NCBI GenBank assembly: GCA_937891805.1
Contig: CALATK010000064.1
Location: 1-20,896, forward strand
Direction: 5' to 3'
Length of the DNA stretch: 20,896 nucleotides
Source: an uncultured Fibrobacter sp.
GTDB taxonomy: Bacteria > Fibrobacterota > Fibrobacteria > Fibrobacterales > Fibrobacteraceae
The translations under genes and the position numbers were made by a program. The number at the start of each line of letters is the position of its first letter. Position 1 is the stretch's first letter. Shown here piece by piece: positions 2,434-18,688 of this stretch. The notes beneath the pieces were generated by a model that did no database searches, was not told where the DNA came from, and saw only the letters and a program-made list of their open reading frames with translations.

Positions 2434-2474
2434 TTCTACTCCAAACGGTTTTTCAAAACCCATTTGGAGTAGAA
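2434..2474. promoter_or_regulatory. Divergent inverted-repeat element between tonB and feoA
   Basis: TTCTACTCCAAA (2434-2445) and TTTGGAGTAGAA (2463-2474) are perfect 12-base inverted arms. Between them GGTTTT (2447-2452) and AAAACC (2455-2460) pair again. On each side the sequence reads TTTGGAGTAGAA towards the gene: tonB starts 35 bases away, feoA 31 bases away. The same sequence recurs at 15783-15795, pointing at the lipoprotein gene. A terminator is unlikely, since both neighbouring genes start here. It is more likely an operator or an unusual promoter shared by iron genes. Confidence 0.6.
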
Positions 2475-2504
2475 CTTTTTTACCCCCGAATCTACCTTTA
2501 GCAC

Positions 2505-2755: not shown

Positions 2756-4804
2756 ATGAGCGAAATCAAGACTATTGCTTTGCTCGGACAACCCAATTCC
2801 GGTAAATCGACGCTTTTTAACAACTTAACGGGACTTCACCAGCGCGTGGGCAACTGGCCCGGCAAAACGGTGGAACAGGCCGAGGGTGAATTTGTTTTTG
2901 ATGGTACGACGTATAAAGTAATTGACCTTCCGGGCAGTTACGGGCTTTCGGCGAACTCCGAAGAAGAAGTCGTGACCCGCGACTATATTCAGAGCGGCAA
3001 GGCGGACCTCGTGTGCATTCTGGTAGATGCGTCGCAGCTGGAACGCAGCCTTTACATGCTGGCTGATTTTGTGGGCATTCGCATGCCCGTGATGCTGGTG
3101 CTCAACATGATGGATGTGGCCGAAGCGGCGGGCAAGAAGATTGACGTGGGTGCGATTGAAAAGCGCCTCGGCGTTCCGGTGCTTGGCTTCAGTGCGGCCG
3201 AAACGGAACGTTATCCTGAATTCTTCAAGAAGATGGTTTCGGCTATCAAGACGCCTGTTTGCTTGGATAGCGGGAGCCTGCGCGAGGAACTCGTTAGCGG
3301 AGGAGAACCTGGCGAAAAAACGGATGATATCATTGGCCGCATCGAAGCAGCCCTCGGTGATTTTGAATATGGCGTTTGCGAAAGAATCTGGATTGCGGAA
3401 AAGCTTCTCGAAAAAGACAAGCTCATTTGCGGTGTCGTGAATGAAATGCTTCCGTTTGCCCGTAAAAATGCGATTGACGCGATTCTCGATAGCGAAGAAG
3501 GGCGCGACGGCGGAATTCTCACTGGCGAGGCCAAGTACCGCTGGGTTTCGAAAATCGTACGCGAATCGGCTACTCCCAAGTCCATCGAGAAGGTCTTTAG
3601 CAAGTGGGACCGCATCGCCACGCACCATATCAAGGGCAAGTTCTTTGCATTCAGAATCATGGTTGTTTCGCTGATTGCGTGCATGATTCTCGCGTTCCCG
3701 GGCATGGGAATCGGTTTTGGAATGCAGCCTGTATTGCAGTCGCTTGTAGAACGTGTTGGCGGCGCGCTTGGCGTCTGGCCTGTGGTAATTTCGTTCATCA
3801 ACTTGGTGCTTGTTGGTGGAACTTGTATTACAATTTGTATGACAAGTTTCATTTTCTCCATCATTTTCGTATTCCGCATTCTCGAGGAAATCGGCTACAT
3901 GGCGCGTTTCTCGTATGCGTTTGACAACTGGCTTTCGCGCCTCGGTTTGCAGGGCAAGGCGATTATGCCGCTGTTCTCCGGAATTGGCTGCACGGCGGGT
4001 GCGGTTTGCGGCACGCGCGTGCTTGATACCCGCGGGCAACGCCTACTTGCGCTCGTTCTGTTGTGGGCGATTCCGTGCGGGAGCAAGGTGGCTGTGGTGC
4101 TGTTCCTGGCGTCGACTTTCTTCGGGTCGGCCGCACCGCTGTTCGGTATCGGCTACGTGGCGCTGATTTTTGCAAGCTTCTATCTGTCTTCGCGCCTATT
4201 CGGAAAAAAGCTTGTCCCGCAGAATGAACGCGTGGGCATGATTATGGAGCTGCCGCCGTATCACAAGCCGCACTGGAAGATGATTGCCGCGATGGTGGGG
4301 CGCAGCACCTGGGGCATTTTCAAGAAGGCTTTGAAGATGATCCTGATGGTGGCGGCCCTTTTCTGGGCGCTCTCTTACGCGGGCGACGGAAATGTGGAAA
4401 ATACTCTCCTTTACAAAATTGGCAATGCGATTGAACCGGTGACGATGTTCTTTGGCATGCGCTGGGAACTGTTCGTCTCTTATCTGGGCGGCATGTTCAG
4501 TAAGGAAGCTTCGCTTGGCATTATGAGCACGCTCTTCAACCACACCGGCGAGGCGTTCTCGCTGGTGACCCGCGTGGCAGCGAGTGAAAACCTGGGCGAG
4601 GCGCTTGCAAGTACCATCAGCAAGCCCGAAGCACTTGCATTCCTGTTTGCGTCGATGTTCAACGTTCCCTGCGTGCTGGCGATGGGCACTACCTACCGTG
4701 AGGCCGGTTCATTCAAGTGGCTGGCCACCATTATGGGTTACTATCTCGCCCTTTCGCTCGGGCTCGCCTTTATCGGCTACCACATAGGATTGCTGATTTT
4801 CTAA
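2756..4804 (+). CDS. feoB: Ferrous iron transporter FeoB
   Basis: FeoB is the inner-membrane ferrous iron permease with a cytoplasmic GTPase domain. It has 682 residues, shorter than E. coli FeoB (773) and without a Cys-rich tail. The N-terminal G domain shows G1 GQPNSGKST (11-19), G3 DLPG (57-60) and G4 NMMD (117-120; the family norm is NxxD). Multiple membrane helices follow from about residue 300. In the gate motifs the two family cysteines are present (Cys412 and Cys441), but their context is GCTAGAVCGTR and PCGSKVAVV, not the classical GCNVPA and SCSARLP forms, so this is a divergent FeoB subtype. The ATG at 2756 was chosen over an upstream in-frame start inside feoA, because the GTPase domain begins here. 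A strong GGAGG for the next gene lies in the gap after its stop. Confidence 0.93.
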   Translation: MSEIKTIALLGQPNSGKSTLFNNLTGLHQRVGNWPGKTVEQAEGEFVFDGTTYKVIDLPGSYGLSANSEEEVVTRDYIQSGKADLVCILVDASQLERSLYMLADFVGIRMPVMLVLNMMDVAEAAGKKIDVGAIEKRLGVPVLGFSAAETERYPEFFKKMVSAIKTPVCLDSGSLREELVSGGEPGEKTDDIIGRIEAALGDFEYGVCERIWIAEKLLEKDKLICGVVNEMLPFARKNAIDAILDSEEGRDGGILTGEAKYRWVSKIVRESATPKSIEKVFSKWDRIATHHIKGKFFAFRIMVVSLIACMILAFPGMGIGFGMQPVLQSLVERVGGALGVWPVVISFINLVLVGGTCITICMTSFIFSIIFVFRILEEIGYMARFSYAFDNWLSRLGLQGKAIMPLFSGIGCTAGAVCGTRVLDTRGQRLLALVLLWAIPCGSKVAVVLFLASTFFGSAAPLFGIGYVALIFASFYLSSRLFGKKLVPQNERVGMIMELPPYHKPHWKMIAAMVGRSTWGIFKKALKMILMVAALFWALSYAGDGNVENTLLYKIGNAIEPVTMFFGMRWELFVSYLGGMFSKEASLGIMSTLFNHTGEAFSLVTRVAASENLGEALASTISKPEALAFLFASMFNVPCVLAMGTTYREAGSFKWLATIMGYYLALSLGLAFIGYHIGLLIF

Positions 4805-4817
4805 TGGAGGAATTTTT

Positions 4818-5432
4818 ATGAGTAATGTAAGATCGACCGGGAAAAAATCTTCAAATACCCTGGTCCGCGACTTGGTGAACGTAGGCATATTTTCGGCACT
4901 TTATATCGTGCTTGGTTTTATGTCGTCGAGCATCGGTTATATTCCCGCCCTTATTGTTTTTTCGACCGCGAGCATCGCGCTTGTGACGAGCGTTCCCATG
5001 TTCCTGTTTTATTCGAAAATAGAAAGGCCGATTCTGTGCTGCATGCTTTTCTGCGGCATTTTCGGGGGCGCAATGTTAGTGATGGGTCAGAGCATTATCA
5101 TGTTTGCGATAAGCCTTGCAGTTGGGCTACTGTCGGGAACAATTCTGAAAATCATAGGGAAAAATTTTGCTGGCTTGTACATGGCAAACATTGTCTTGAG
5201 CCTAATGAGTTCTTCAATGATGCTTCCGCTTTGGCTTTATACCGAGGAATATCTGGAATATACCCGTGGCATGTGCGACGAAGGTTACGTTGCGAAGCTG
5301 GCGGAACTTTCTAACAGCATCTGGCCCCTGGTCGGAATCTACACCTTCGGCATCTTGGGTGCCGTTATCGGTGGACTTGTGGCCCGCCGCATCATGAAAA
5401 GACACTTCGAACGAATTGGGCTTGCTCGGTGA
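4818..5432 (+). CDS. ECF transporter S component, MptD / Trep_Strep family
   Basis: This is a substrate-binding membrane subunit of an energy-coupling factor importer. The 204 residues are mostly hydrophobic, with about five or six predicted membrane helices. The family hallmark, a strongly basic stretch near the C-terminus, is present (ARRIMKRHFERIGLAR). The N-terminal VRDLVNVGIFSALYIVLGF resembles the opening of this family. It is preceded by GGAGG six bases before the ATG. It lies 13 bases after feoB and overlaps ecfT by 4 bases, so all are one operon. The substrate of this family is not established; the FeoAB and siderophore-type neighbours suggest a metal or metal-chelate, which is inference. 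The family assignment is from recognition, not a search. Confidence 0.8.
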   Translation: MSNVRSTGKKSSNTLVRDLVNVGIFSALYIVLGFMSSSIGYIPALIVFSTASIALVTSVPMFLFYSKIERPILCCMLFCGIFGGAMLVMGQSIIMFAISLAVGLLSGTILKIIGKNFAGLYMANIVLSLMSSSMMLPLWLYTEEYLEYTRGMCDEGYVAKLAELSNSIWPLVGIYTFGILGAVIGGLVARRIMKRHFERIGLAR

Positions 5433-6115
5433 AATTGGACCCTCGGACAAAACTGTTCCTAACGATTGCGGGAAACAGCATCATTCTTTCCGCGCCAGTG
5501 ATTTACGGCGCCATGATTGTTGTTTTGCCGGCGGTTTTACTGGTGCTTGAAAAAAGATGGCGGCTTTCCCTGCTCTTTTCTTTCTTGTACGCAATATCTG
5601 CATTCAGTTTTGATTATTTAAAAACAATGGATGTCGGGCTCGCGGGCACGCTGTTTGTCTCGACAATGATGCTTGTTTCGCATGTGATGCCGATAAGCGT
5701 TATTTTTTACTATGTCATGACGACCACCAAGGTGAACGAGTTTATGGCGGGAATGTCGAAGATGCATATTCCTAACAAAGTGACGATTCCCTTGGCGGTG
5801 ATGATTCGCTTTTTCCCCACCGTATTTGACGAGGCTCGCGATATCGGAAACGCAATGCGCATGCGCGGCATACGCCTGTTCAGTCTGCGGACCTTGAAAA
5901 ATCCTTTCCTGTTCCTCGAATACAGGCTCATTCCGCTGCTGGTGTCGCTCACGAAAATCGGTGACGAACTTTCGGTGGCGGCGACGACGCGCGGACTTTC
6001 GCCAGAAATGAGACGCAGTTGCATGGTCAAAATCGGGTTCCGCGTTCAAGATGTTATCGTGTTTGTTTATTGTTTAGCTGTTGTAGCTTTATTCTGTTCT
6101 CGGTCAGTCCCTTAA
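5429..6115 (+). CDS. ecfT: ECF transporter transmembrane component EcfT (CbiQ family)
   Basis: EcfT couples the ATPases to the S component in the inner membrane. The 228 residues open with KLDPRTKLFLTIAGNSIIL, the usual EcfT/CbiQ start, followed by several membrane helices. Two Ala-Arg-Gly-like coupling motifs are visible in the cytoplasmic region: AMRMRGIRLFS and ATTRGLSPEMRR, the segments expected to touch the ATPase grooves. The start is GTG at 5429-5431. It overlaps the stop of the S-component gene (shared GTGA), a classic sign of translational coupling. The ATPase gene follows after a REP-like repeat. Together the three genes make a complete dedicated (group I style) ECF transporter. Confidence 0.87.
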   Translation: MKLDPRTKLFLTIAGNSIILSAPVIYGAMIVVLPAVLLVLEKRWRLSLLFSFLYAISAFSFDYLKTMDVGLAGTLFVSTMMLVSHVMPISVIFYYVMTTTKVNEFMAGMSKMHIPNKVTIPLAVMIRFFPTVFDEARDIGNAMRMRGIRLFSLRTLKNPFLFLEYRLIPLLVSLTKIGDELSVAATTRGLSPEMRRSCMVKIGFRVQDVIVFVYCLAVVALFCSRSVP

Positions 6116-6144: not shown

Positions 6145-6157
6145 TTGCTTGTTAGAA

Positions 6158-7654
6158 ATGACTATCACATTAAAAAACGTTTCCTTCTCCTACACGGAAT
6201 CTCTTGACGATGCCGTCATCAAGAACTTGAATTTTGAAATCAAGTCCGGTGAATGCGTTGTGCTTGTAGGCGAATCGGGCTGCGGCAAGACGACAATCTC
6301 TAAGTTGATCAACGGGCTTATTCCGCTTTATCAATCGGGAACGATGTCGGGTGACGTATTGCTCGGCGACAAGAATTCCGCCGACATGATGCTTGCCGAA
6401 ATTTCAAGACATGTGGGTTCCGTTTTCCAGAATCCCCGTTCGCAGTTTTTCAATATCGATACCGATAGTGAAATCGCCTTTGGCTGTGAAAACTTGGGAA
6501 TGGATCCGGAAGAAATCCGGGAGCGCGTGGATCGCGTCGTGAAGGAATTCCACATAGAACATCTGGTGGGCAGGAACATCTTTCACCTTTCCGGCGGAGA
6601 AAAGCAGAAAATCGCCTGCGCCTCGGTCTCTGCGACCGATCCCGAAATTTTCGTTCTCGACGAGCCTTCGGCTAATCTTGACTTGAAAGCAGTCGCAGAC
6701 CTCGCCGGAATCATCAAGTTCTGGAAATCTCGCGGCAAGACCGTTGTTATCGTGGAGCACCGCATCCATTACCTGCGAGACATTGCAGACCGGATTTGCT
6801 ATGTAAAAGACGGTCGCATTGCGCATGAATGGACTCCTGCGGAACTCGAAGCGAAAGGCCCGGAATATGCGGCAAGCCTCGGCCTGCGCTGTGTCAACTT
6901 GAAACAACTAGGTGAAACAGAAGATGCCCGCCTGCGCGGGCATGACAAGAAAGGTGTCATTGCGACCCTGAACTCGTTTCAGGGGAAGCAATCTCCTGTC
7001 GACGAGTTCACCTTCAACAACCTTCATTTCGCCTACAATCGCAATTTCCCTGTTTTAGACATTCCGGAGCTTTCACTCCCCCGCTATCAAATCACTGCCA
7101 TTATCGGCCATAATGGTGCTGGCAAATCGACGCTGGCCCAGGTGCTATGCGGGCTTCGCGGGACTTGGCGTCAAAAACGCAAGGCCCGTAAGTACGGGGC
7201 GTACTTGATTATGCAGGATGTAAACCACCAACTGTTTACAGAAAGCGTCCTTGACGAAATCTTGCTGGGCATGAATCTGCAAGATGAAAACGCCGCCCTT
7301 GAAATCCTTGAAAGGCTTAACCTGAAAGAATACGCTAGCTGCCACCCGATGGCGCTTTCGGGTGGGCAAAAACAGCGTGTTGCAATCGGTAGTGGCGTTT
7401 CTAGCGGTCGCGAAATTGTTGTATTTGATGAACCCACCAGTGGCCTTGACTATAGACAAATGCTGGCCGTATCGGCGACTCTCCAGAAATTGGCAGCCAC
7501 CGGAAAAACGCTACTCGTGATTACTCACGACCCCGAATTCATTCTAAACTGTTGCGACAACGTTATACGCATGGAGCACGGCAACATCGCCGAACAATAC
7601 CCGTTGCATGGTAACTGTGAACGGCTCATTTGCACAATGACGGAATCCTATTAG
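6158..7654 (+). CDS. Fused ECF ATPase (EcfA-EcfA' tandem ABC protein)
   Basis: Two ABC ATPase domains in one 498-residue chain would power the ECF importer. Domain 1: Walker A GESGCGKTT (38-46), Q-loop Gln91, signature LSGGE (144-148), Walker B FVLDEP (165-170), switch His201. Domain 2: Walker A GHNGAGKST (317-325), signature LSGGQ (400-404), Walker B VVFDEP (421-426), switch His457. All catalytic motifs are intact, so both sites should hydrolyse ATP. The linker at about residues 255-280 is encoded by two REP-like repeats in frame. The ATG at 6158 gives a normal ABC start (MTITLKNVSFSY). A longer reading from TTG 6116 would translate another repeat and is judged artificial, though neither start has a Shine-Dalgarno sequence. 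The stop overlaps the stop of the convergent barrel gene. Confidence 0.9.
   Translation: MTITLKNVSFSYTESLDDAVIKNLNFEIKSGECVVLVGESGCGKTTISKLINGLIPLYQSGTMSGDVLLGDKNSADMMLAEISRHVGSVFQNPRSQFFNIDTDSEIAFGCENLGMDPEEIRERVDRVVKEFHIEHLVGRNIFHLSGGEKQKIACASVSATDPEIFVLDEPSANLDLKAVADLAGIIKFWKSRGKTVVIVEHRIHYLRDIADRICYVKDGRIAHEWTPAELEAKGPEYAASLGLRCVNLKQLGETEDARLRGHDKKGVIATLNSFQGKQSPVDEFTFNNLHFAYNRNFPVLDIPELSLPRYQITAIIGHNGAGKSTLAQVLCGLRGTWRQKRKARKYGAYLIMQDVNHQLFTESVLDEILLGMNLQDENAALEILERLNLKEYASCHPMALSGGQKQRVAIGSGVSSGREIVVFDEPTSGLDYRQMLAVSATLQKLAATGKTLLVITHDPEFILNCCDNVIRMEHGNIAEQYPLHGNCERLICTMTESY
6921..6996. repeat. Two REP-like repeats (d and e) inside the fused ECF ATPase gene
   Basis: Copy d has stem ATGCCCGC (6924-6931) / GCGGGCAT (6936-6943), in inverted orientation relative to copies a-c. 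Copy e (6956-6996) begins GTCATTGCGACC and ends GCAATCTCC, with an inner palindrome CCCTGAA-CTCG-TTTCAGGG. The two are head to head and both are translated without stop codons, giving the interdomain linker residues (RLRGHDKKGVIATLNSFQGK and flanks). Confidence 0.85.
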
Positions 7655-8865
7655 AAATAATACTTCGCTTTCGCCCAGATTTCGCGGTTCTTGTCGTAGC
7701 CTGCGAGTTGCCCGCGCTTGCCGCCAAAGTGGTCGTAGCCGAGCGAAATCATTACCTGGTCAGTGACGGAGTAATCGCCCGAAACGCGTGCGTAATAAGC
7801 AAGGTTGTCGATGTCGAACATGCCGTAGAGCGAAAGCTTGAGCGTGTTGTTCAGGAGTTCCTTTGAAATACGGAAGGTCATTTCAGAAGAATTCTTTTCG
7901 GCAGCAAATTTGTCTGAATAGTCAGCGATATACTTGTGCAAATACTGCACCATGAAAGTCCAGTTGTCGCCGGCGTACCAGTCGATTCCACCGAGCGCAT
8001 TGAACGTGTTCTTGCGGGCGTAATCGAGGTTGCTTGCGTAACCGAGCGCTTCGCCGAAGTATTCTGCGATTTCGGCACGCAGCACGAATTCGCCGACAGG
8101 CATCGAAAGGTCGCCACCGATCATGGTCATGGTTTCGTGAATGCCGTGGATGACAATAGAATCCTTGACGGGGTCGTAGCCTGCGACCGTAACGGGCGAC
8201 TGGTTATGCGTATGAAGCGCCGAAATGGAGAAATCCAGATTCGAGAGGAAGAACGAAACTCGCGTTCCGAAATCTCCGTTCTTGAATTTGGCATCGGGAC
8301 CTTCTGGGAAATCGATGCTCGCTTTTTCGGGCAATTCAGGACGCCAGGGGTTTTCTTCTTGCATGGGCATCTGGAAATATCGCGGCACGGGCACGTAAAC
8401 GATTTCGGCATTTACACGCTCGCCGGGGTACTTGATACGGAAACCGTCGACAGCCATGCGCATGTCGTCGTAGTCACTCGACATGAACTCGGTGTAGTCT
8501 ACTGGCGAAATCAGGTCGGTAACGCGAAGCCCGTCGGCAACGCCCCATACCACAATCTGGCGGCCTGCACGAATTTCAAGAAAGTCGTTCTGGTAGTTGA
8601 AATACGCTTCTTGCAACTGCACGCCGGTGCGGTCTTCGAGAATGCTGTTGTGCACGCCATTCAGGCTTGCAAACAGGTAAGCGTTCTCGTAGTCCACGCG
8701 GAGTTCCGCACGCAGGCGCGTCCGCGACGTGGTAAAATCGTGCGGATGCTGCGTCTGCACGGCGTGATACGTGTCCACGAACCCATTGAATTGAAACGGG
8801 CTTTCTTGGGCGAAGGCTGCGACAGCGGCCGCCAATAACAATGCTGCTAGAGATTGCTTCGTCAC
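7651..8865 (-). CDS. Outer-membrane beta-barrel protein (DUF1302-like)
   Basis: A 404-residue protein with a signal peptide (hydrophobic run, then AAFA; cleavage probably after Ala19). The rest is rich in alternating amphipathic strands and ends in an aromatic C-terminal strand (WAKAKYYF), typical of barrels handled by the BAM machinery. The segment GRQIVVWGVADGLRVTDLIS, followed by PVDY, resembles the signature of DUF1302-type barrels found with RND/MMPL exporters and LolA-like proteins. It is last in the operon after those two genes, which supports a joint envelope transport role; the cargo is unknown. The start chosen is GTG at 8863-8865, with AAGGAG 7 bases upstream. A longer frame to 8964 only translates repeats. 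Its stop overlaps that of the convergent ATPase gene. Confidence 0.75.
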   Translation of the reverse strand: MTKQSLAALLLAAAVAAFAQESPFQFNGFVDTYHAVQTQHPHDFTTSRTRLRAELRVDYENAYLFASLNGVHNSILEDRTGVQLQEAYFNYQNDFLEIRAGRQIVVWGVADGLRVTDLISPVDYTEFMSSDYDDMRMAVDGFRIKYPGERVNAEIVYVPVPRYFQMPMQEENPWRPELPEKASIDFPEGPDAKFKNGDFGTRVSFFLSNLDFSISALHTHNQSPVTVAGYDPVKDSIVIHGIHETMTMIGGDLSMPVGEFVLRAEIAEYFGEALGYASNLDYARKNTFNALGGIDWYAGDNWTFMVQYLHKYIADYSDKFAAEKNSSEMTFRISKELLNNTLKLSLYGMFDIDNLAYYARVSGDYSVTDQVMISLGYDHFGGKRGQLAGYDKNREIWAKAKYYF

Positions 8866-8883
8866 TTTATTTCTCCTTAATTT

Positions 8884-8967
8884 GTCATTCCCGACTTGGT
8901 CGGGAATCTCCTTTTCTACTAAAAAAATGTTTTGTAAAGGGGAGATGCCCGCCTTCGCGGGCATGAC
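8884..8967. repeat. Inverted pair of REP-like palindromes (copies f and g)
   Basis: Copy f has stem ATTCCCGAC (8887-8895) / GTCGGGAAT (8899-8907). Copy g has stem ATGCCCGC (8945-8952) / GCGGGCAT (8957-8964). They are in opposite orientation, separated by 29 bases, so the pair could also fold as one larger hairpin. They fill the 120-base gap between the LolA-like and barrel genes, a typical place for paired REP units that shape mRNA stability. Confidence 0.85.
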
Positions 8968-8985
8968 AAAAGTGGGGATAGTTCC

Positions 8986-9768
8986 TTATAAACCTCTTTC
9001 TAAGCGCGGGACGGTGAATGTCTTTGCGTCTAGCGGAATGTTGAACTTGATGTCGCCGAATTCAAGGAGCGTCTTGTGGTTGGTCTGCACGTTTTCCATG
9101 CTCATCTTGGCGATAGACCAGAAGCCGTCAACCTGAACCACGTTTTCGACTTTCAGCGGGCGGTGCAACTTGCCGAGCTTGTCGTAGTATTCCACCTTGG
9201 CGGCAATCAGGCAGTCCTTGCGAATCCAGGAAATTTTCTTCGAGAAGATTTCGTCGCCTTTTTTCGGCACAGATTCAACTACCCAGCAATCGATTCCGTC
9301 TACCTTTTCTTCGCGGAGGAGCTTGTGCGTGTCTTCGTCGATGTTGCGCTGGCCAACGTCGTCGTAAGTGAAGTCGGAACCCATGAAGTAATCCGTCTTG
9401 GAGCTCTTTCCGCTAATGCGGCGCGTCTTTTTCATGGCGGGCAGGTAAAGCCATTTGTCGTCATCCTTGTTGATGTCGTCGTAATCGACGGTCAGGAATC
9501 CCGTGCCCTTTACGTCGTTGGGGTAGCGGAAGAACATAATCTGCTTGGTGTCCTTGCCCACATCCATTGCGAACGAGGTAATCTTGCGTTCGCGCCTGGC
9601 TCCGCTCTTGTTGATGAGAGTCATTGAGAGTTCGGAACTGCGGGTGTCGCCATCGGGGCGGTCATGTACCTTCTGTACAATGTCTCGACCGGTCAATGTT
9701 TCTGCGCTCACCATGGCGCTCAAGGCGACAATAATTGTCGCGGCTGTTTTTGCGAATTTCATATTCAT
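8986..9768 (-). CDS. LolA-like periplasmic outer-membrane lipoprotein-sorting protein
   Basis: A 260-residue exported protein: signal peptide [22 protein letters not shown] with likely cleavage after Ala22. The mature part has the pattern of the LolA-like family that accompanies RND transporters. Visible are [20 protein letters not shown] near the start, the [20 protein letters not shown] stretch, [18 protein letters not shown], and [14 protein letters not shown]. Such proteins have a half-open beta barrel that binds lipid or another hydrophobic ligand in the periplasm. Here it probably passes ligand between the RND protein and the barrel; the ligand is unknown. It starts 9 bases after the RND stop, with AGGAG overlapping that stop, so translation is coupled. 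It is not the housekeeping LolA, which is smaller and lacks this context. Confidence 0.82.
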
Positions 9769-9777
9769 ATTTTTCTC

Positions 9778-12153
9778 CTATTTTCCAAAAATCTTGAATT
9801 TCTTGATTAAAAGCGGTGTCACGAAGAGGTCTGCGAGCAGTGCCGAGACAAGGCCCACGAACACCACGAAACCGAAGTTGAACATCTGCGTTGCGGCTGA
9901 GGTGGTAAAGCCCGCAAAGGTCGCCACCATGATAATCGTCGTCATCACGAGAGCCGGGCCCGCCGTGCGGAACACGTTGAGAATCGATTCGCGGTAATCG
10001 TGGGTGCGGTCAAATTCCACATGCCCATGGTTGATAAAGTGAATCGTGTCGTCAACGGAAAGGCCGATAATCATCGGGATGAGTGTCGCTGTCATCATGT
10101 CAAGCGGAATGTCCGTGAGCCCGAGATAACCGCCCACGAAAATACCCGGCGCAATGTTCGGAATCAGGCAGATAAGGCCCGTGCGAATGCTGCCGAAAAC
10201 GATCATCAAAAGGACTGCCACGATGACCACGGAAATCAGGAATGACGTCATCTGGCCGACTTCCAGGTACTGCTGCATGGCGGTGAACTGCGGCAAGTTA
10301 CCCACGGCAGTCACCTTTGCGTCCGGGTAAAGCTTGCGCGCGAAATTCTGCAAGTCCTCGATTTCCTTCTGGAGTTCGTTGGAGTTGTAGCTCGAAATTT
10401 CAATCATCAGGCGGAGCTTCTTGTAATCGTAATCCATCCAGTAGCTCGCTTCGCTGCCGCCAGCGTTTTCGTAGAGCAAAAGCAGTTGCGCGACTTCTTC
10501 TTCAGTTTCGGGAATGGCGTATTTGTCCTGACGATTTTCATTCAGCGTGCGGTCCAAATCCTTGACGATATCAAGAATGGAGGTAGAACGCTTGGTAAGC
10601 GGGTACTTGCCTGCGTATTCCTGCAACTGTTCCAACTTTTTAAGATTTTCGACTTCCTTGGCCTTGTCATTTGCGCCAAAGTCAATCACCAAGTCGTAAG
10701 AGTAGAAGCTTCCGATTTCGGATTCTGCCACGTAGAGCATCTTGTTCACGTATTCGACCTTGCGGCCCATGGTGCGTTCCACGTCAAAGGCGGGTTCTAT
10801 CTTGGCGAGTCCGAAAACAGAAATTGCTGTCACGACGGCGAATACGATGGCGATGGGCTTTCCATGCCCGAGAACGAACCTGCCGATAGAATCGAGAATG
10901 ACTCCCATGCGCGTGTCGCCACGTTCAAGTACCTTGGCGTTTGGCTTCTTGTCTTTACCGAAACTCAGAAGAATCGGCGAAATGGTCAACGCTACAAGCA
11001 AAATGAATCCGACCGCAATCGACGAGAGAATGCCCACGGAGCGAATCGGCTTGAGCATCACCGAAAGGAAACTGAGCAATGCGACAATCGTGGTAAGACC
11101 CGAGAACAGCACCGACCAGCCTGTTTCACGCATGGCGTAAAGCACCGATTCCTTGCGCTTGCCCGTAAGCATCATGTTCTTGCGGAAGAACGAGTTGATG
11201 TGAATGTTGTATGCAATCGAGACGGCGAAGGCCAAGATCACGGGCACCATGATGTTGGTCGCATCCATGTAAAGCCCGAGATAACCCACCAGGCCAAATG
11301 TCATGATGACACCCGCAAAAGTCGTAATCAGCGGAGAGACAATTCCGCGGAGCGAACGCGTCACCAAGAACATCACGATGATGGCGCAGAGAATCGTCAT
11401 GATGAAAATGCGGCCCATTTCTTCGCCGATGTATTTCAGCTTCTGGAAACTCAGGTAGGGCATGCCTGTAGCACGCGGGTGCAGCGGCGCATACTTTTCC
11501 TTCGCGATGATTTCAGTTGTTTCACGGCCCGTCTGCATGTCGGGAGCTTCCGCCTTTTCGCCTTTGGCTTCGCCTTCGGCCTTCCAAACGGAATCTTCGG
11601 GGAAGGGGCGCAGCTTGATGTTGATGAAGGCCTGCTTGCGGTCACTTGAAATCAGCTTCTTCGCCAGTTCCGGCTTGTCGGCCAGGCGTTTTTCGATTTC
11701 GGCAAGCCCCGCCTCGTCCGTCGGGATTTCTTCAGGCACAATCTGCGTAATTTCCATGCCCTCTTCGGTGCCGAGCATGTATTCCAAATCGACAATTGAA
11801 GTCGCCTTGCCGTCGGAGTACGAGAGGCTGTCGCGCAGTTCGTTGGAAAGTTCGCGCAAAAGTTTTAGGTTGTCCGGCGTCAAGATGGAATGGTCGCTCT
11901 CGACCAGCACGCCCACGAAATAGTCGTTACCGAAAGTTTCCTTGAACTTGTCGGTTTCCACAAGCATCGGGTCGCCCTCGATAAAGTAGCTGTCCCACGA
12001 CGCCTCGACGTAGATTTTTTTCATGCCCACGATCGAAACCGCAAGCAAAACGACAAACGCCACCAGCAAAATGGCGCGGTGATTGAGCAAGAATTCGCCA
12101 AAACGGCCGAACCGCTCGTTGATTCTTTCAATGTTGATTTTTGGAAGGCTCAT
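9778..12153 (-). CDS. RND/MMPL family transporter (HAE3-type predicted exporter)
   Basis: A 791-residue inner-membrane protein with the RND two-fold layout: helix 1 at about 27-44, a large periplasmic loop, a block of helices, then the same plan again. The second half carries GLSVDDTIHFINH, whose aspartates are the expected proton-relay residues. The equivalent first-half segment (FAVSIAYNIHINS) lacks the Asp. The first loop has a low-complexity insert (EGEAKGEKAEAPD). This type moves lipids or other hydrophobic compounds and often pairs with LolA-like proteins. The ATG at 12153 has AGAGGA upstream. A longer frame to 12267 lies inside the receptor gene and is rejected. It lies 13 bases after the receptor stop and 9 bases before the LolA-like gene. 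Confidence 0.85.
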   Translation of the reverse strand: MSLPKINIERINERFGRFGEFLLNHRAILLVAFVVLLAVSIVGMKKIYVEASWDSYFIEGDPMLVETDKFKETFGNDYFVGVLVESDHSILTPDNLKLLRELSNELRDSLSYSDGKATSIVDLEYMLGTEEGMEITQIVPEEIPTDEAGLAEIEKRLADKPELAKKLISSDRKQAFINIKLRPFPEDSVWKAEGEAKGEKAEAPDMQTGRETTEIIAKEKYAPLHPRATGMPYLSFQKLKYIGEEMGRIFIMTILCAIIVMFLVTRSLRGIVSPLITTFAGVIMTFGLVGYLGLYMDATNIMVPVILAFAVSIAYNIHINSFFRKNMMLTGKRKESVLYAMRETGWSVLFSGLTTIVALLSFLSVMLKPIRSVGILSSIAVGFILLVALTISPILLSFGKDKKPNAKVLERGDTRMGVILDSIGRFVLGHGKPIAIVFAVVTAISVFGLAKIEPAFDVERTMGRKVEYVNKMLYVAESEIGSFYSYDLVIDFGANDKAKEVENLKKLEQLQEYAGKYPLTKRSTSILDIVKDLDRTLNENRQDKYAIPETEEEVAQLLLLYENAGGSEASYWMDYDYKKLRLMIEISSYNSNELQKEIEDLQNFARKLYPDAKVTAVGNLPQFTAMQQYLEVGQMTSFLISVVIVAVLLMIVFGSIRTGLICLIPNIAPGIFVGGYLGLTDIPLDMMTATLIPMIIGLSVDDTIHFINHGHVEFDRTHDYRESILNVFRTAGPALVMTTIIMVATFAGFTTSAATQMFNFGFVVFVGLVSALLADLFVTPLLIKKFKIFGK

Positions 12154-12166
12154 TGTATCCTCTTTT

Positions 12167-14401
12167 TTATCTAAAACTGTATCGGATCTTTGTCGCAAAT
12201 GTGCGGCCGGGTTTACTTTCGCCGTACTTGTCGTAAACGGTTTCGTCCATAAAGTTGTCGACCTCAAAACTCCAGGCGAGTTTGTTATCCCAAACAGAGT
12301 ATTCTATGCCCAAATCTTGTGAGAAAGACGCTTCGATTTTGCGGCTCTGGCGAGAACTGACTCGCCAACCGTAATAGTATTCGTCGGTATAGTTGGCAGC
12401 CCACCAGAACTTGACAAAATCGTTCCTGTTGAGTATATCACCCATGTGGAATTCGGCAAGGAAGTTCATGAAGAATCGTGGAATGTTCGGAATGATTGCG
12501 TCTTTGGAAATTCCCTGCTTGGCGTTGTAATCAATGTTGCGTAAGTCCTGGAAAGTCCAGTTCGTGCCAAGTAGCACCCATTCATTAACGTCTAGCTTGA
12601 CATCGCCCTCGTAGCCCCAGCCGCGAATGGGCTCCATGTTAAAGTATGGTACAGACATTAGGGCGGAACTCATATAATGAATGCGGTTCTTGTAGTAGGT
12701 GTAAAACGCATCGACGTCTAGACGGAGTCTTGCTACAAGGGGGAGCTCCTGCAGGTCAAGCGAAAAGCCGGCATTGATGTTGTCTGATTCTTCAGGTTTC
12801 AATCCGGGAGCTGCACCGATTCCTGCGCCGTCACCAAAGAGTTCATCAGGAGTGGGGAGCCGTACGGAATGCTGGTAAGAGGCTTTTAGTGTTAGGGGCT
12901 CTACCACATTAAAACTTAGGCTTTCATCGTAGGCATAATCATGGTAATCTGTTTTTTCTATGGTGGGCTCAACAAGGGCACTGTAGGTTCCCTTTGATAT
13001 TTCGGCCTTCATATAATGAACCTTGAAACCAATCATATTCTGGAATTTCCAGAAGCTGTTTTCTAGTGAAAGTCCGCTGGTTACCGAAATCCGTTTTCCC
13101 GGGAATCCTGCGATGTTAAAGCCCACCGATTCTGATCCGAAGTCGTCTTCCGGTTTTTCTTTGTAGTAGCGGAATAGGGTGTTCCAGTAAATAAATTGTT
13201 TTTTGAATAATTCATAGTCGAGATTCAGCAAGTCATTGAAATTGTAGGCTTCAACAGTGCGGAGCCGCGGAAGTCCCATCGAAGAAAGTTCACCAATATT
13301 TTTGTTGGCGGTATCGCAAGAAATCCAATTGCGGCAATGGGTCTTTGTTGTATCAATAACCTTGTTTTTATTGTAATCAAAGGAGAAAAAGTCTCCGAAT
13401 CTTAGGCCCTTTATAAACAAATCAGCCTTGTCTAGCCCAAATGTGGCTCCAACGCTGCGGGAATTCATTTCGGTTTCCGTTATCCGGTAAGAAACGCCTT
13501 GCACCTCTTTCCATGTTGCTCCGTAACTTACCCCAAGAGAAATCTGGTCAAACCATGCTTTGTTTAGGTTTGCGAAAGCTTGTACGCTTGTTGATGTATA
13601 GTGATCATGGTCGCGAATGACAGAAGTATCCTGGCCTTCGCTGCCCTTCATATAGGGGGATGTAAATTCATAATCGTTGTCGGAATGGTTGAAATAGCCC
13701 GATACACCGACTTCAAGACTTGTGCCGCCTGCAATGCTGTCAATCAGGTGGCTTGCGCTTACCGAGGCCTTGTGTGTGTTGAAGCTTGAAAGACTATAAG
13801 AAGCATCTATGGCATTAACAGAACGTTTTTTGGTAACGATGTTTACGGCTCCGCCAGCGCCATCTGTAGCGAATCGGGCGGGTACATAGCCCTTGTAAAC
13901 TTCAATGTCTGCAATCTGGTCAATGGGAATGTCGTCAAGTCCTAAGTTGCCCTGCGTTTCGACAGGAACTCCGTTCACCAGCACCTTGATGTTCTTTCCC
14001 TCAAAGCCACGAATATTGATTTTTCCTTCGCTTCCCATACCGCCGGACTTGCGAACCTTCACACCCGATGTAGAGTTGATGGCCTTAGAGATGGTCTTGC
14101 TTGTGTTCTGCATTTCTGCCGCATCTATAGTCGCAACAGACTCCATCTTTTTGGCTTGCTTTACTTGTTCCGCCTCTACGTCGGATTCTACGGAAAGCTC
14201 ATCTAGCTGAGTTACATTGTCTGAGTCTGAGCCATTCGTGTTGCTACTTGCGACCTTGTCTTCGGCAACTTCGTTGGCGGATTCTTCCAGAAAATCGTCT
14301 ATGGAGGTGATTTCGTCATCTTGCGCATAGGCCGCTATGGAACCAAATGCTGCCATAATAATCGCAAGTGTTGTTGCCTTATATGTGTTCATCTTTTTCA
14401 T
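12167..14401 (-). CDS. TonB-dependent outer-membrane receptor
   Basis: A 744-residue gated channel for import of a large substrate, probably a ferric chelate given the neighbours. A signal peptide ends near AYA (26). An acidic, Ser/Asn-rich stretch follows, with a possible TonB box around QLDELSVESD (65-74). The plug domain spans about 88-192, with GKINIRGFEGKNIKVLVNGV, the IADIEVYKGYVPARF segment and GAGGAVNIVTKK, all family hallmarks. The 22-strand-type barrel ends in a terminal Phe-Arg (TKIRYSFR). Two cysteines spaced HCRNWISC near residues 355-362 may form a disulfide in an external loop. No N-terminal signalling domain is present. The start could be Met1 (14401) or Met4 (14392); neither has a clear Shine-Dalgarno sequence. 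It follows the lipoprotein gene across a hairpin and precedes the RND gene by 13 bases. Confidence 0.93.
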   Translation of the reverse strand: MKKMNTYKATTLAIIMAAFGSIAAYAQDDEITSIDDFLEESANEVAEDKVASSNTNGSDSDNVTQLDELSVESDVEAEQVKQAKKMESVATIDAAEMQNTSKTISKAINSTSGVKVRKSGGMGSEGKINIRGFEGKNIKVLVNGVPVETQGNLGLDDIPIDQIADIEVYKGYVPARFATDGAGGAVNIVTKKRSVNAIDASYSLSSFNTHKASVSASHLIDSIAGGTSLEVGVSGYFNHSDNDYEFTSPYMKGSEGQDTSVIRDHDHYTSTSVQAFANLNKAWFDQISLGVSYGATWKEVQGVSYRITETEMNSRSVGATFGLDKADLFIKGLRFGDFFSFDYNKNKVIDTTKTHCRNWISCDTANKNIGELSSMGLPRLRTVEAYNFNDLLNLDYELFKKQFIYWNTLFRYYKEKPEDDFGSESVGFNIAGFPGKRISVTSGLSLENSFWKFQNMIGFKVHYMKAEISKGTYSALVEPTIEKTDYHDYAYDESLSFNVVEPLTLKASYQHSVRLPTPDELFGDGAGIGAAPGLKPEESDNINAGFSLDLQELPLVARLRLDVDAFYTYYKNRIHYMSSALMSVPYFNMEPIRGWGYEGDVKLDVNEWVLLGTNWTFQDLRNIDYNAKQGISKDAIIPNIPRFFMNFLAEFHMGDILNRNDFVKFWWAANYTDEYYYGWRVSSRQSRKIEASFSQDLGIEYSVWDNKLAWSFEVDNFMDETVYDKYGESKPGRTFATKIRYSFR

Positions 14402-14493: not shown

Positions 14494-15705
14494 TTATTCA
14501 AGCGGAACGAGCCACATGGGAATCAGGTCCACATCGGCAATCTTTTCGGCCGTATCGTCCTTCGGATTGTAGCGGTAGTAGGCGTTGCCGTCCTTGGTAG
14601 AAACCGCAAAGACAACCGTCCCGTCATTCTCAATAACCTTACCAAAAGAAGCCCAGCTAGAAGAAAGGTCGATGGGCAGAGCCTTGATGGTCTTCTTGGC
14701 AAGGTCAAGCTGCACTGGCTTGCATGTCGGATTGTAATAGTCTTCTTCAGAGGTCCAAGATTTCTTCAAGTCTTCCATCACGTTCAAGAAGGAATAGACA
14801 ACAGAGCCTTCGTTGTTGGAGAACGGAGCGAGATACTTGAACACGCCCTTCTTTGTCAGGTCCTTGATTTCGACTTCATCGGAGATATTCCAGACGTAGC
14901 CCTTGTCAAATTCCTTTTCGCCCACCTTGATGCGGAGGAATCCATCTTTTTGACCGGGGCCGTAACCCCAAGAGGCGTTGGAGTAGGTGTAGATGTAATT
15001 GTCAACTACGATAAAGGCGTGATTCTCGCTGTCGTCAAGAGAACCCACAGCGGCCACGCGGTCATCCTTGGCAACGGCAATCACTTCGTCTTTTTCTACG
15101 TCAATGATGGCGACTTGGGCCACATCACCTGTGGCATACTCGCTCTGGTTTTGCAGCAGGCCTATATAGAGGAGTCCGTCAACTATCACGCCTGTGCTCG
15201 GAGTGACCGATGTTGCAGTCTTGTCTTTGTACTTGGCAAGATTGATGGAACCGGTAACTTTCATGGTCTTTGGATTGAAAATCACCAAGGAATCCATCAT
15301 GCCCGCAATGTAGCCCTTCTCCTTGTCGACAAAGAAAAGGTGAGCTGCCCAGGCACCAGCCAACGTAATAGAGCCTTCCTTTTTGCCAATTTTGTCACCT
15401 TCGATAGCGTAGCGAGTGATGCTTCCTACGTCCAGATCCATAATGAATGCGGAACCGTCAAAATAGGCGGCACCTGCGCGGTTGCCCACTTCGATGTAGT
15501 CCTTGCCAACGTCTTGTGTGTTGTCAAGGCTCACGATACCGATGAAGATGTTATCTTGGGCGGCTGCGGCATGAATGTATTTGCCATTGCCGGCAGCGCC
15601 GCCATTTTCGCCATTGGCAGAAGAAGAGGAATCGTCACCGCAAGCAGTGAGCATGGCGACTGATGTCAATGCCGCAGTAAGGGTAGTGAGAATTTTGGAT
15701 TTCAT
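14494..15705 (-). CDS. Exported lipoprotein, beta-propeller-like (DUF4374/XusB-like candidate)
   Basis: A 403-residue lipoprotein: signal peptide with lipobox LTAC and lipidated Cys22. A flexible acidic and Ser-rich linker (GDDSSSSANGENGGAAGN) follows. The mature part has repeated short blade-like units such as GKYIHAAAAQDNIFIGIVSL, GSITRYAIEGDKIG, TPSTGVIVDGLLYIGLLQN and GNAYYRYNPKDDTAEKIADV, the look of a beta-propeller. In Bacteroidota, DUF4374 lipoproteins such as XusB sit next to a TonB receptor and capture siderophores at the cell surface. The position just upstream of a receptor fits that role; the homology is suspected, not proven. Acidic residues after the Cys would fit surface export as in Bacteroidota. 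The ATG at 15705 is preceded by CAGGAG; a longer frame adds 48 unlikely residues. It is divergent from the araC-type gene. Confidence 0.7.
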   Translation of the reverse strand: MKSKILTTLTAALTSVAMLTACGDDSSSSANGENGGAAGNGKYIHAAAAQDNIFIGIVSLDNTQDVGKDYIEVGNRAGAAYFDGSAFIMDLDVGSITRYAIEGDKIGKKEGSITLAGAWAAHLFFVDKEKGYIAGMMDSLVIFNPKTMKVTGSINLAKYKDKTATSVTPSTGVIVDGLLYIGLLQNQSEYATGDVAQVAIIDVEKDEVIAVAKDDRVAAVGSLDDSENHAFIVVDNYIYTYSNASWGYGPGQKDGFLRIKVGEKEFDKGYVWNISDEVEIKDLTKKGVFKYLAPFSNNEGSVVYSFLNVMEDLKKSWTSEEDYYNPTCKPVQLDLAKKTIKALPIDLSSSWASFGKVIENDGTVVFAVSTKDGNAYYRYNPKDDTAEKIADVDLIPMWLVPLE

Positions 15706-15782
15706 AAATACTCCTGTAAAAATGGGGCGAGTGGTTCGCCGGTTGAATTTTGCGGAGCATTTTAGAAATGTCTTTGCGGCCC

Positions 15783-15956
15783 TTCTACTCCAAATAGCGT
15801 TATAAAAATCCAAATGGTCATGGATATTTTGCCTAAGATAACACTCCAATTGGACGATTTTGGCTCTAAAAAGGCAATCTTGTAACGAAGATTTGGCTTT
15901 ACGGGAATAAAATTAGCCTTGACAAAGATTTCAACATAAGTTAGATTTGGCTTACT
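15783..15956. promoter_or_regulatory. Shared lipoprotein/araC control region with CCAAAT/ATTTGG boxes
   Basis: TTCTACTCCAAAT (15783-15795) matches the tonB/feoA element. A second CCAAAT lies at 15810-15815. A perfect palindrome TCCAATTGGA lies at 15845-15854. Then come ATTTTGG (15857-15863) and two copies of AGATTTGGCTT (15889-15899, 15943-15953), 54 bases apart. The boxes face inwards around the central palindrome. The last copy overlaps the candidate araC -10. This looks like an operator region, perhaps for the AraC-type protein itself. The whole gap is 269 bases. Confidence 0.5.
15919..15947 (+). promoter_or_regulatory. Candidate promoter of the araC-type gene
   Basis: TTGACA (15919-15924) is a perfect -35 match, followed after 17 bases by TAGATT (15942-15947). 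The start codon is 28 bases further on. ATTAGCCT (15912-15919) and AGGCTAAT (15967-15974) form an 8-base inverted repeat that brackets the promoter. Confidence 0.6.
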
Positions 15957-15974
15957 TTTTAAGACGAGGCTAAT

Positions 15975-16811
15975 ATGCTGAATATAAAAGGTATTGAATG
16001 GCTGTACAAAATCGGGTGCTACCATACGACGCTCGCAAGGGAACCCATTCTAGTTCTCGAATTTTGCAGGAAAGGGGATATCAGTTGGGCTGGAGGTGCC
16101 CTTCCCTGTAATCAGCTGAAAGCTGGAGAATTGCTGGTTTATGACGCCTGGACTTCGGGAGCGCTGACCCGTTCTGCGGATTATTCCGGTGATCGTATTT
16201 TGTTTTATGGGGAATCCCAAAAGTATATCCGTGAACATTTTGCGGGTTTTCAAATCGATATTGAGAATCTTGCCCAAAACTTCTGCAAACCCGGTCGCCC
16301 GTTTATCGTGCACACCAAAGAAGAAGTTGTGCGAGCCTTCGAGAAGGTCGAAAACAAGTCCAAATCGGCGTTGGACGAATACGGCAAACTCGTCATTTTG
16401 GAACTTTTGTTGACCTTGAAGAATCTTGACCAGCAACGCGAATACGTTTGTCGCGAATATAATCTGTCTTCGTTACAGATTGAAAAAATTTACTGCGTCC
16501 GTTCGTTCATCTGCGAGAACATGGACAGTCATTTTACCATCGAAGAACTTTCCGACAAGTTTGACATGCCGCCTACCGCAATGAAGCTTTGCTTCAAGAA
16601 TGTTTTTGGAATGCCCGTTTTTACTTATGCACGCCACGAACGCATGAAACTGGCCGCCAAGCAACTTCGCGAATGCGACCGTGGGATTCTCGAGATCGCT
16701 GGCGAAGTCGGTTACAATAACGGGAGCAAGTTTGCCCACGCCTTCCAGGACGTGATGGGCATGACCCCCAAGGAATACAGGAAAAAATACAGACTCACGA
16801 ATGTAGCATGA
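15975..16811 (+). CDS. AraC-family transcriptional regulator
   Basis: A 278-residue DNA-binding regulator. The C-terminal about 100 residues hold the two AraC helix-turn-helix units: the first at about 188-209 (FTIEELSDKFDMPPTAMKLC), the second at about 237-258 (ILEIAGEVGYNNGSKFAHAF). The family-typical MGMTPKEYRKKYR closes the domain. The N-terminal about 160 residues, presumably ligand sensing, are not assignable to a known binding fold. Position between the receptor/lipoprotein operon and the ABC pair matches AraC-type activators of siderophore uptake such as YbtA, so a chelate-responsive regulator is likely. GAGG lies 5 bases before the ATG. Its own promoter overlaps an ATTTGG box, which suggests autoregulation. 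Confidence 0.87.
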   Translation: MLNIKGIEWLYKIGCYHTTLAREPILVLEFCRKGDISWAGGALPCNQLKAGELLVYDAWTSGALTRSADYSGDRILFYGESQKYIREHFAGFQIDIENLAQNFCKPGRPFIVHTKEEVVRAFEKVENKSKSALDEYGKLVILELLLTLKNLDQQREYVCREYNLSSLQIEKIYCVRSFICENMDSHFTIEELSDKFDMPPTAMKLCFKNVFGMPVFTYARHERMKLAAKQLRECDRGILEIAGEVGYNNGSKFAHAFQDVMGMTPKEYRKKYRLTNVA

Positions 16812-16903: not shown

Positions 16904-18688
16904 ATGAAAAACACTTTCAAAAAACTCTACGCATACATGGGTTCGCGAAAACCGCTGTTCCCGCTAGCATTGATTCTCTCGGCATTGAGCGCCATCGCGG
17001 GGCTCGTGCCGTTTTTACTGATGTGGCTGATTGTCCGCGAGGTTATCTCTGGCGGCGACATGACGAACATCAAGATTTTCGACTACTCCATCGGGGCGGT
17101 TCTCGCCTCGGTCGCAAGCGTTCTGCTCTACTTTGCGGCCCTCGCCTGCTCGCACTTGGTGGCATTCAGGCTCGAAGGCGACCTGCGTCGATTCGCCATG
17201 AAAAAACTGATGTCTGCGCCACTCGGATTTTTCGACAAGAACCCGACCGGCAAACTCCGCAAGATTATTGACGACAACGCCGCGATTACGCACACCTTCA
17301 TTGCGCACCAGATGCCCGACATTTCAGGCACCATCTTGATTCCCGTCGTGGCGCTCGTGATGATGTTCAGCTTTGACTGGCGACTTGGCCTCGCCTCTTT
17401 GGTGCCTATCGCATACGCCTTGTTTATTTTGGGCACGCTTGGCCGCAGGGGAACCAAGTTCATGGAACGCTACATGCAGGCCCTCGAAGAGATGAACGCC
17501 GAAGCAGTGGAATACGTGCGCGGGATACCCGTAGTCAAGGTTTTCCAGCAGACGATTTTTTCATTCAAGAGTTTCTACAACAGCATCGCGACCTACCACA
17601 AGATGGTGACTGCCTATTCCGACAATTGGAAAGTTCCTTACTGCATCTACACGACCCTCGTGAACGGCTTCGTACTGTTCCTGGTGCCGACGGCAGCGCT
17701 CATTATCGGTAACGACGGCGATGTAAAACTCACCATCGTGAACATGATGATTTACGTGCTGGTGACGCCGCTATTTTCGCAGTGCGTCATGCGCAGCATG
17801 TACCTAAGCAACGCTACGAACCAGGCGGGACTTGCCATTGACCGCATCAACGATATTGCACGCACCAAGGATTTGGAAGTTTGTGAAAATCCCGTACCGA
17901 TGCAAAAATTCGATGTAGAATTCCGGAACGTGAACTTCACCTACCCCGATACCGACAAACAGGTACTGAGCGACATTTCGCTCTCGGTACCGGCGGGCCA
18001 TACGGTAGCACTTGTCGGGCCTTCGGGCGGCGGCAAGAGTACGATTGCAAAACTCCTGCCACGATTCTTCGATGTCGATAGCGGCGAGATTACCATTGGC
18101 GGTGTTCCCGTAAAGCAGATTGACCCGAAGGAACTGATGAAGAACGTTTCGTTCGTGTTCCAGAATACGCGCCTTTTCAAGATGAGCATTCTGGACAACA
18201 TTCGCTACGGCATGCCCGACGCGACTCTCGAGCAGGTAAACAAGGCGCTTGATCTTGCGCAGTGCCGCGAAATCATCGACAAGTTGCCCGGCGGTATTGA
18301 TACTGTTATCGGGAGCAAGGGAACTTATCTTTCGGGTGGCGAGCAGCAGCGAGTGGTGCTTGCGCGCGCTATCTTGAAAAACGCCCCCATCGTGGTGCTC
18401 GACGAGGCGACCGCCTTTGCAGACCCCGAAAATGAACGCCTGATTCAAGAAGCCTTGCACAAGCTTGCCGCCGGCAAGACCGTTCTGATGATTGCCCACA
18501 GGCTTACAAGCGTGGTGAACGCCGACCAGATTATCGTTGTGGAAGATGGCGAAATCGCTGAACGCGGAACGCACAGCGAATTACTTGAAAAGAACGGCAT
18601 TTATGCCAAGATGTGGGCCGAATACCAGCAGTCCGTCACGTGGACCCTCGACAATTCCAAGAATAATGAAGGAGGCGAAAATGTATAA
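16904..18688 (+). CDS. ABC transporter permease/ATPase, siderophore-importer type (YbtP/IrtA-like), first subunit
   Basis: A half-transporter of 594 residues: an N-terminal six-helix membrane domain (about 1-310) fused to an ATPase domain. Walker A is GPSGGGKST (372-380), signature LSGGE (476-480), Walker B IVVLDE (496-501), then the D-loop variant ATAFADPENE and the switch-His segment AHRLTS. I recall the AFADPE form in the exporter-fold importers YbtPQ/IrtAB, which bring ferric siderophores through the inner membrane. The second subunit follows with an 8-base overlap, so they form a heterodimer. The context (AraC regulator, TonB receptor) supports import of a ferric chelate, but export cannot be excluded from sequence, since the fold is that of exporters. 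The ATG at 16904 has no Shine-Dalgarno sequence because the heptad repeat abuts it. Confidence 0.82.
   Translation: MKNTFKKLYAYMGSRKPLFPLALILSALSAIAGLVPFLLMWLIVREVISGGDMTNIKIFDYSIGAVLASVASVLLYFAALACSHLVAFRLEGDLRRFAMKKLMSAPLGFFDKNPTGKLRKIIDDNAAITHTFIAHQMPDISGTILIPVVALVMMFSFDWRLGLASLVPIAYALFILGTLGRRGTKFMERYMQALEEMNAEAVEYVRGIPVVKVFQQTIFSFKSFYNSIATYHKMVTAYSDNWKVPYCIYTTLVNGFVLFLVPTAALIIGNDGDVKLTIVNMMIYVLVTPLFSQCVMRSMYLSNATNQAGLAIDRINDIARTKDLEVCENPVPMQKFDVEFRNVNFTYPDTDKQVLSDISLSVPAGHTVALVGPSGGGKSTIAKLLPRFFDVDSGEITIGGVPVKQIDPKELMKNVSFVFQNTRLFKMSILDNIRYGMPDATLEQVNKALDLAQCREIIDKLPGGIDTVIGSKGTYLSGGEQQRVVLARAILKNAPIVVLDEATAFADPENERLIQEALHKLAAGKTVLMIAHRLTSVVNADQIIVVEDGEIAERGTHSELLEKNGIYAKMWAEYQQSVTWTLDNSKNNEGGENV

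Follow-up and report, generated by a model that had tools for sequence, protein, structure and literature searches.

The window analysed here, a stretch of 20,896 bases of Fibrobacter DNA, raises the question of why one short sequence, TTTGGAGTAGAA, stands in front of three iron genes and what might recognize it there. Exact copies lie at 2434–2445 (−), 2463–2474 (+) and 15783–15794 (−); there is no other copy in the window, and none of 100 dinucleotide shuffles of it contained an exact TTTGGAGTAGAA. All three copies point into an iron gene (tonB, feoA and a lipoprotein gene), with start codons 34, 30 and 77 bp away, the last being the ATG at 15705. This agrees with the first-pass annotation, which had described copies reading towards their genes at about 35, 31 and 78 bases, and had seen a perfect 12-base inverted repeat between tonB and feoA, which the sequence bears out. 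Its further claim, that the same 13 bases recur at 15783–15795, stands in part: the 13-mer TTCTACTCCAAAT is present there and is common to the reverse strand of the feoA copy (2462–2474), but the 13th base of the tonB copy is C, unlike TTCTACTCCAAAT. With up to three mismatches allowed, the window holds 24 motif matches versus 17.4 expected, a number reached by 10 of 100 shuffles and near background. Since mismatched copies are not clearly enriched, the signal in the window resides in the exact copies.

The genes around these copies form an iron-uptake cluster. On the minus strand, tonB (1662–2399; Pfam TonB_C) is followed by exbB (1057–1623; MotA_ExbB) and exbD (664–1056; ExbD). On the plus strand, feoA (2505–2753) and feoB (2756–4804), matched by Pfam FeoA and FeoB, are followed by genes assigned by Pfam to a Trep_Strep ECF S component (4818–5432), a CbiQ-type T component (5429–6115) and a two-domain ABC ATPase (6155–7654). 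An MMPL/RND-like membrane protein (9778–12150, −) precedes a LolA-like protein (8986–9768) and a DUF1302 protein (7651–8964); these three are a conserved trio inside the iron cluster (7651–12150). The TonB-dependent receptor (12167–14401, −; Pfam) has as its best curated match the myxochelin receptor MxcH, at 326 bits and below the cut-off of 925. The lipoprotein (14494–15705, −) is an XusB-like propeller by its predicted fold. Divergent from the third site lies the gene of an AraC-family regulator (15975–16811, +; Pfam HTH_18, 6.7e-18, and HTH_AraC). Two ABC transporters follow at 16904–20414 (+); in both, the membrane domain is fused to the ATPase domain (Pfam ABC_membrane, ABC_tran). They span 16904–18688 and, from the first start codon, 18537–20414. 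A DUF3793 gene (20506–20895) comes next and runs off the window; it occupies the same place in genomes G030, G088 and G095.

Anatomy of the element

On the evidence of the aligned sites, TTTGGAGTAGAA is only the promoter-proximal half of a longer element with two half-sites. The distal half-site CCATTCGGATTTT comes first, C(C/T)R-TTTGGAGTAGAA lies 20 bp further on, and after another 18 bp there is a TAnnTTTG-like −10 box. The motif would thereby span about −42 to −31, a position at which a bound activator would overlap the −35 region. The logo comprises 73 distinct sites (3 copies outside the target families dropped, 7 repeats merged), with position 0 set at the first T of the motif. C occupies −3 in 73/73 sites, and a distal block CC-A-T-T-C-GG-x-TTTT runs from −23 to −11; at offset −23 this block is matched on average at 9.2/13 positions, and no other offset exceeds 6.2. 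The distal block and the proximal one form a direct repeat, offset by 20 bp, although the distal half-site is weak at some MMPL-paralogue sites (alignment A1). Downstream, C is found at +29 in 71/73 sites, T at +30 in 64/73 and T at +35 in 73/73. The block at +30 starts 19 bases past the motif and reads TAnnTTT(G/C) or near, with TA exactly there in 43 of the 73.

TAnnTTTG is the −7 consensus of sigma-ABfr of Bacteroides (PMC7366714). As a general promoter mark it gave a weak outcome here: for 191 upstream regions the counts were 19 in sense and 15 in antisense orientation, with a shuffle mean of 13.1. We therefore base the assignment of the −10 box on its conserved position and on the araC promoter (15919–15949, +), which combines TTGACA (15919–15924) with TAGATTTG (15942–15949) over a 17 bp spacer. 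In the araC upstream alignment (21 genomes and the window; G082 left out), TTGAC and TAGATTT(G/A) are conserved at a spacing of 17 bp counted as for a hexamer. This promoter calibrates the −10 box, and by that measure the motif takes the place of the −35 hexamer in the other promoters. TATAAT was found in 5 of the same 191 regions on the sense strand and in 13 on the antisense strand (shuffle mean 22.6) and seems to be avoided.

For searches we used R1, a sequence-only profile made of 39 of 80 sites after removal of near-copies; 22 genomes were searched, and the 150 best candidates in each were scored. All three window sites are among the 39 that built R1, so their E-values are not independent. 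For the tonB element the R1 match covers 2408–2467 (−; E 4.3e-12) and includes the proximal half-site, at about −42 to −31, the distal half-site CCAAATGGGTTTT (2455–2467, −; consensus CCATTCGGATTTT) and the −10-like box TCAATTTG (2408–2415, −). The feoA element (R1 match 2440–2497, +; E 3.6e-10) has its distal half-site CCAAACGGTTTTT at 2441–2453 (+) and its −10-like box TACCTTTA at 2493–2500 (+). The corresponding features of the lipoprotein operon (R1 match 15757–15818, −; E 3.7e-13) are CCATTTGGATTTT (15805–15817, −) and TAAAATGC (15757–15764, −). Distal half-sites were read from the sequence and alignment A1; each −10-like box has its first base 19 after the motif and is assigned from position-specific conservation. 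In both the tonB and the feoA element the half-sites are spaced one base closer than usual, and the distal half-site of each overlaps the proximal half-site of the other. Read in this way, the 41-bp inverted repeat between tonB and feoA is two elements overlapping head to head. Such overlapping pairs also occur in G028, G030, G056, G061, G076 and G077, and G031 has one before its tonB and feoA.

Distribution of the element and the regulator

We searched 111 genomes of the family for the AraC protein and then counted exact motifs. An orthologue (62–89% identity; AraC-A below) is present in 22 of the 111, all in the genus of the nearest genome, G001, which has 35% of sampled words in common with the window; 19 other genomes gave AraC matches at 29–34% identity only. 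The exact motif has 147 matches in the 111 genomes. The 22 AraC genomes hold 80 of them, at least two each, versus 3 for the reversed-pattern control. The 58 congeners without the orthologue hold 38 (control 14), and the 31 genomes of other genera 29 (control 13). Two or more copies are found in 22/22 AraC genomes versus 10/58 congeners (Fisher p 2e-12, a value made too small by kinship).

The copies concentrate where the first-pass annotation had suggested looking, in front of iron-cluster genes of related genomes: 79 of 83 copies (AraC genomes and window) precede seven recognised cluster families, namely MMPL (25), lipoprotein (20), TonB-dependent receptor (18), ABC transporter of ~588 aa (10), TonB (3), Trep_Strep (2) and FeoA (1). 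One more precedes an alpha/beta-hydrolase gene and three lie elsewhere. Target groups were formed by blastp linkage, and representatives of five groups were named by Pfam. G001 itself has only three exact copies, on one contig within 12 kb, before the MMPL paralogue, the lipoprotein and the receptor; its gene order differs from that of the window. The annotation's idea of a common regulon signal, oriented towards iron-uptake units, gains support from the recurrence of the exact motif before the same gene families in the 22 genomes, as well as from its constant orientation and fixed distance to the −10-like box across them. What comparison among these sequences shows is the element with its constant layout, the genes it targets and its association with this AraC. 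At L115:9771–10967 (G077, −) a box precedes the alpha/beta-hydrolase gene; a siderophore esterase there would fit the regulon.

Outside the AraC-A genomes, 51 of 67 matches were inspected. Among the 20 inspected copies from other genera (29 found), 17 overlap an ORF of at least 100 aa and 13 one of at least 200 aa; by the identical mechanical measure, which is coarse, 30/80 and 15/80 target sites do so. The copies in other genera look like background. G104, which with 7 matches had seemed a promising carrier, was rejected, as 7/7 overlap ORFs of at least 183 aa. At L241 (G100, another genus; − strand) the flanks are nearly identical to the main-genus MMPL-paralogue promoter, by transfer or assembly contamination.

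R1 gave a similar distribution. Its best E-values are 1e-13 to 1e-10 for 11 AraC-A genomes, with many of their sites being part of the profile itself, and in 8/8 AraC-A genomes on few long contigs every listed match with E < 0.01 among the 150 best candidates sits on the araC contig. In 4/4 genomes without a match to this araC or TonB, R1 found nothing below E 0.19 among the 150 best candidates. Five genomes with a second regulator type, AraC-B, gave best E-values of 5e-6 to 4e-4.

AraC-B, of only ~30% identity, accompanies related iron clusters in 17 genomes, one of which (G085) has both types. The tonB promoter of these genomes has the same layout but carries TTTAGAGTAGAA, found before tonB in 15/17 genomes. 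In the 21 AraC-A-only genomes there are 78 TTTG forms against 9 of the TTTA type, for which the reversed pattern gives 8; the 16 AraC-B-only genomes have 16 TTTG and 24 TTTA forms (reversed pattern for TTTA, 5), a difference with p 1e-8. Several TTTG forms in AraC-B genomes precede ABC transporter and other genes. As AraC-B genomes still hold 16 TTTG forms, the G-to-A core change that tracks the AraC type in these sequences is a preference and not absolute. The idea that the motif merely tracks the iron cluster does not hold well when tested with the AraC-B genomes. In three of these (L264, L268 and L272 of G072, G075 and G087) an ORF of ~186 aa is preceded by the TTTG form, accompanied by a block resembling the distal half-site and, at close to the normal distance, a TCTAAAAT-like box.

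Two genomes depart from the association. G061 and G062 are both 100% complete and lack this AraC, yet have perfect sites (best R1 E 3e-12 and 5e-12), with 3 and 2 exact sites, respectively, before cluster genes. G061 has no HTH_18 match at E 0.001 and none to this AraC; G062 has weak partial AraC matches only (26–40% identity). In G062 (C1:482531–488638) the ABC–araC–lipoprotein–receptor stretch of G095 is missing, and a second, partial MMPL-paralogue end is joined to the far flank; in G061 (C3:51221–62779) there are similar extra 3′ MMPL-paralogue fragments (loci L138, L147 and L148 of the two genomes). Recent loss of the araC–ABC–lipoprotein–receptor cassette is likely in both, to judge from these arrangements, and best explains the persisting sites. 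The cassette joints look like loss or gain by recombination. G031, 93% complete and fragmented, has sites and no araC match.

The candidate activator and rival explanations

We consider it very probable that the AraC-family protein encoded at 15975–16811 is an activator of the local iron-uptake cluster and that TTTGGAGTAGAA is the proximal half of its operator. The protein has the features of the AraC/XylS family, a C-terminal double HTH (HTH_18) and an N-terminal AraC-type ligand/dimerisation domain, and its model (pLDDT 86.7) folds as an AraC-type regulatory domain with an HTH pair. Its best NCBIfam match is E. coli AraC (54.8 bits, cut-off 208). The curated equivalogs Btr (29.0 bits, cut-off 900) and RhrA (23.3 bits, cut-off 500) fall far below their cut-offs, and there is no PchR or YbtA model among the best 25 of 29 curated matches. 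Two traits of siderophore-sensing AraC proteins are present: the gene is flanked by the receptor, the XusB-like lipoprotein and the two ABC transporters, all with putative siderophore cargo, and a common oriented box stands before several iron operons.

From the layout of the sites we infer binding, dimer geometry and activation as follows. An AraC dimer would bind two direct half-sites 20 bp (about two helix turns) apart, CCATTCGGATTTT distal and C(C/T)RTTTGGAGTAGAA proximal. The proximal half-site would replace the −35 hexamer upstream of the TAnnTTTG-like −10 box, and bound AraC would recruit RNA polymerase as a class II activator. The predicted regulon comprises tonB-exbBD, feoAB, the XusB-like lipoprotein with the receptor, MMPL and the ABC transporters. 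As the likeness to PchR and YbtA suggests, the regulator probably responds to an imported ferric siderophore, and an iron-dependent repressor probably limits araC. An imperfect palindrome, GTTAG...CTAA(T/C), in full GTTAG...CTTA/TAAG...CTAA, lies over the araC −10 box (15940–15974, +) and is conserved in the upstream alignment; our guess is that it is a repressor operator, a site for an iron repressor. A DtxR-family gene scoring above the cut-off is found on the iron-cluster contig in 6/6 genomes searched, a weak link given how long these contigs are. AraC-B genomes also carry TTAG/CTAA palindromes before their araC.

Other readings of the element have to be weighed against this one. It might be bound by another, unlinked DNA-binding protein that G061 and G062 have kept, its association with AraC reflecting shared cluster membership only. 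The perfect sites of those two genomes, which lack this AraC, favour such a protein, but both carry cassette scars, and the core's G-to-A change parallels the AraC type though MMPL is 90% identical in several of these genomes; we think this reading unlikely. The motif could also mark a promoter type without an activator, serving as the −35-type element for a dedicated sigma factor such as an ECF sigma. Such a promoter would account for the constant 18 bp that separate the motif from a conserved −10-like box, for the nearly invariant bases and for the persistence of sites in G061, where there is no HTH_18 match. It would not be expected to have a second conserved half-site 20 bp upstream (peak at −23), and the −10 box resembles TAnnTTTG, which also occurs at the araC promoter together with TTGAC. 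Moreover, the motif is tied to AraC-A, with a preference of its variant for AraC-B, and at 12 bases the core is longer than expected of a −35 element. A dedicated sigma factor thus appears quite unlikely.

That the element is an ordinary Fur or DtxR iron box is suggested by the iron genes themselves and by the presence of Fur- and DtxR-family proteins in 6/6 genomes searched. The element, however, is an asymmetric direct repeat, and with up to three mismatches the window contains neither a match to the 19-bp GATAATGATAATCATTATC-like Fur box nor one to the DtxR consensus; the first-pass annotation was right that it does not look like a Fur box, and we see next to no chance of this identity. Equally implausible is an intrinsic terminator or RNA hairpin at 2434–2474. 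The perfect 12-bp inverted repeat is followed, one base later, by six T on the plus strand, as a terminator might be. But tonB and feoA diverge from it, for which we rejected a terminator here, and the third copy and most copies elsewhere stand alone before genes. A terminator scan found none at 2434–2474, although its 8-base loop limit would miss the 17-base loop.

Probable siderophore uptake and known systems

The cargo of the cluster is suggested by the lipoprotein, which has no Pfam match above cut-off. DUF4374 matches it weakly (E 0.014, 14.7 bits, cut-off 25), and the protein database precomputes PF14298.14 for it. Its model (pLDDT 81.0) has B. fragilis XusB as the top six PDB chains (E 4.2e-15, TM 0.68–0.70, 16–17% identity), and the next-best folds are B12-binding BtuG-type propellers (TM 0.55–0.60). 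XusB, a DUF4374 propeller, binds siderophores of foreign origin according to PMC13142918. Since the lipoprotein model matches XusB and the best curated match of the receptor is MxcH, the cluster likely takes up siderophores. As in XusAB of Bacteroides, a TonB receptor gene lies beside that of a lipoprotein whose model matches XusB. The differences are the 16–17% identity, DUF4374 below cut-off, a receptor closest to MxcH, and the combination here with ABC transporters, Feo and an AraC regulator; the term 'arac' has 0 occurrences in the main text of the XusB paper (PMC13142918).

We speculate, with considerable doubt, that the AraC protein senses siderophores of other microbes as the signal receptor of an Xus-like iron piracy, and that the tonB and feoA boxes form a two-way switch. 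The bound dimer would then drive either tonB or feoA and so tie ferric-siderophore to ferrous-iron import.

The proposed activation by AraC has familiar counterparts. E. coli AraC at araI1–I2 occupies two half-sites in direct orientation, spaced by about two turns, of which the proximal one overlaps −35; the half-site geometry is the same here, whereas half-site sequence, ligand and the 20 bp spacing differ. YbtA of Yersinia, likewise of the AraC type, regulates a siderophore system that has a TonB-dependent receptor and, like the cluster here, two ABC transporters. The Yersinia system also makes its siderophore, and the likeness is one of arrangement. Repeats upstream of the YbtA target operons are putative YbtA sites (PMC8725597). 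PchR of Pseudomonas aeruginosa is an AraC-family activator of siderophore uptake operons and is likened here by regulatory logic. Ferric pyochelin binds PchR and induces biosynthesis and uptake operons (PMC8477383). The logic proposed here is likely PchR/YbtA-like. Among the titles and abstract openings we searched, with most subscription papers outside their range, there was no paper on an AraC-controlled iron regulon or on promoters of Fibrobacter.

If the proposal is correct, an iron regulon of Fibrobacter, cellulose degraders of gut and rumen, gains an operator, a probable activator and a list of targets. The box with its −10 would be a ready reporter for which foreign siderophores these anaerobes sense, AraC-A and AraC-B would offer two naturally diverged regulators with box preferences that differ in a single core base, and some Fibrobacter promoters would have a working −10 consensus. 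The lipoprotein homologues P0106, P0120 (Fibrobacter sp. UWB13) and P0133 are all from Fibrobacter, at 61–66% identity.
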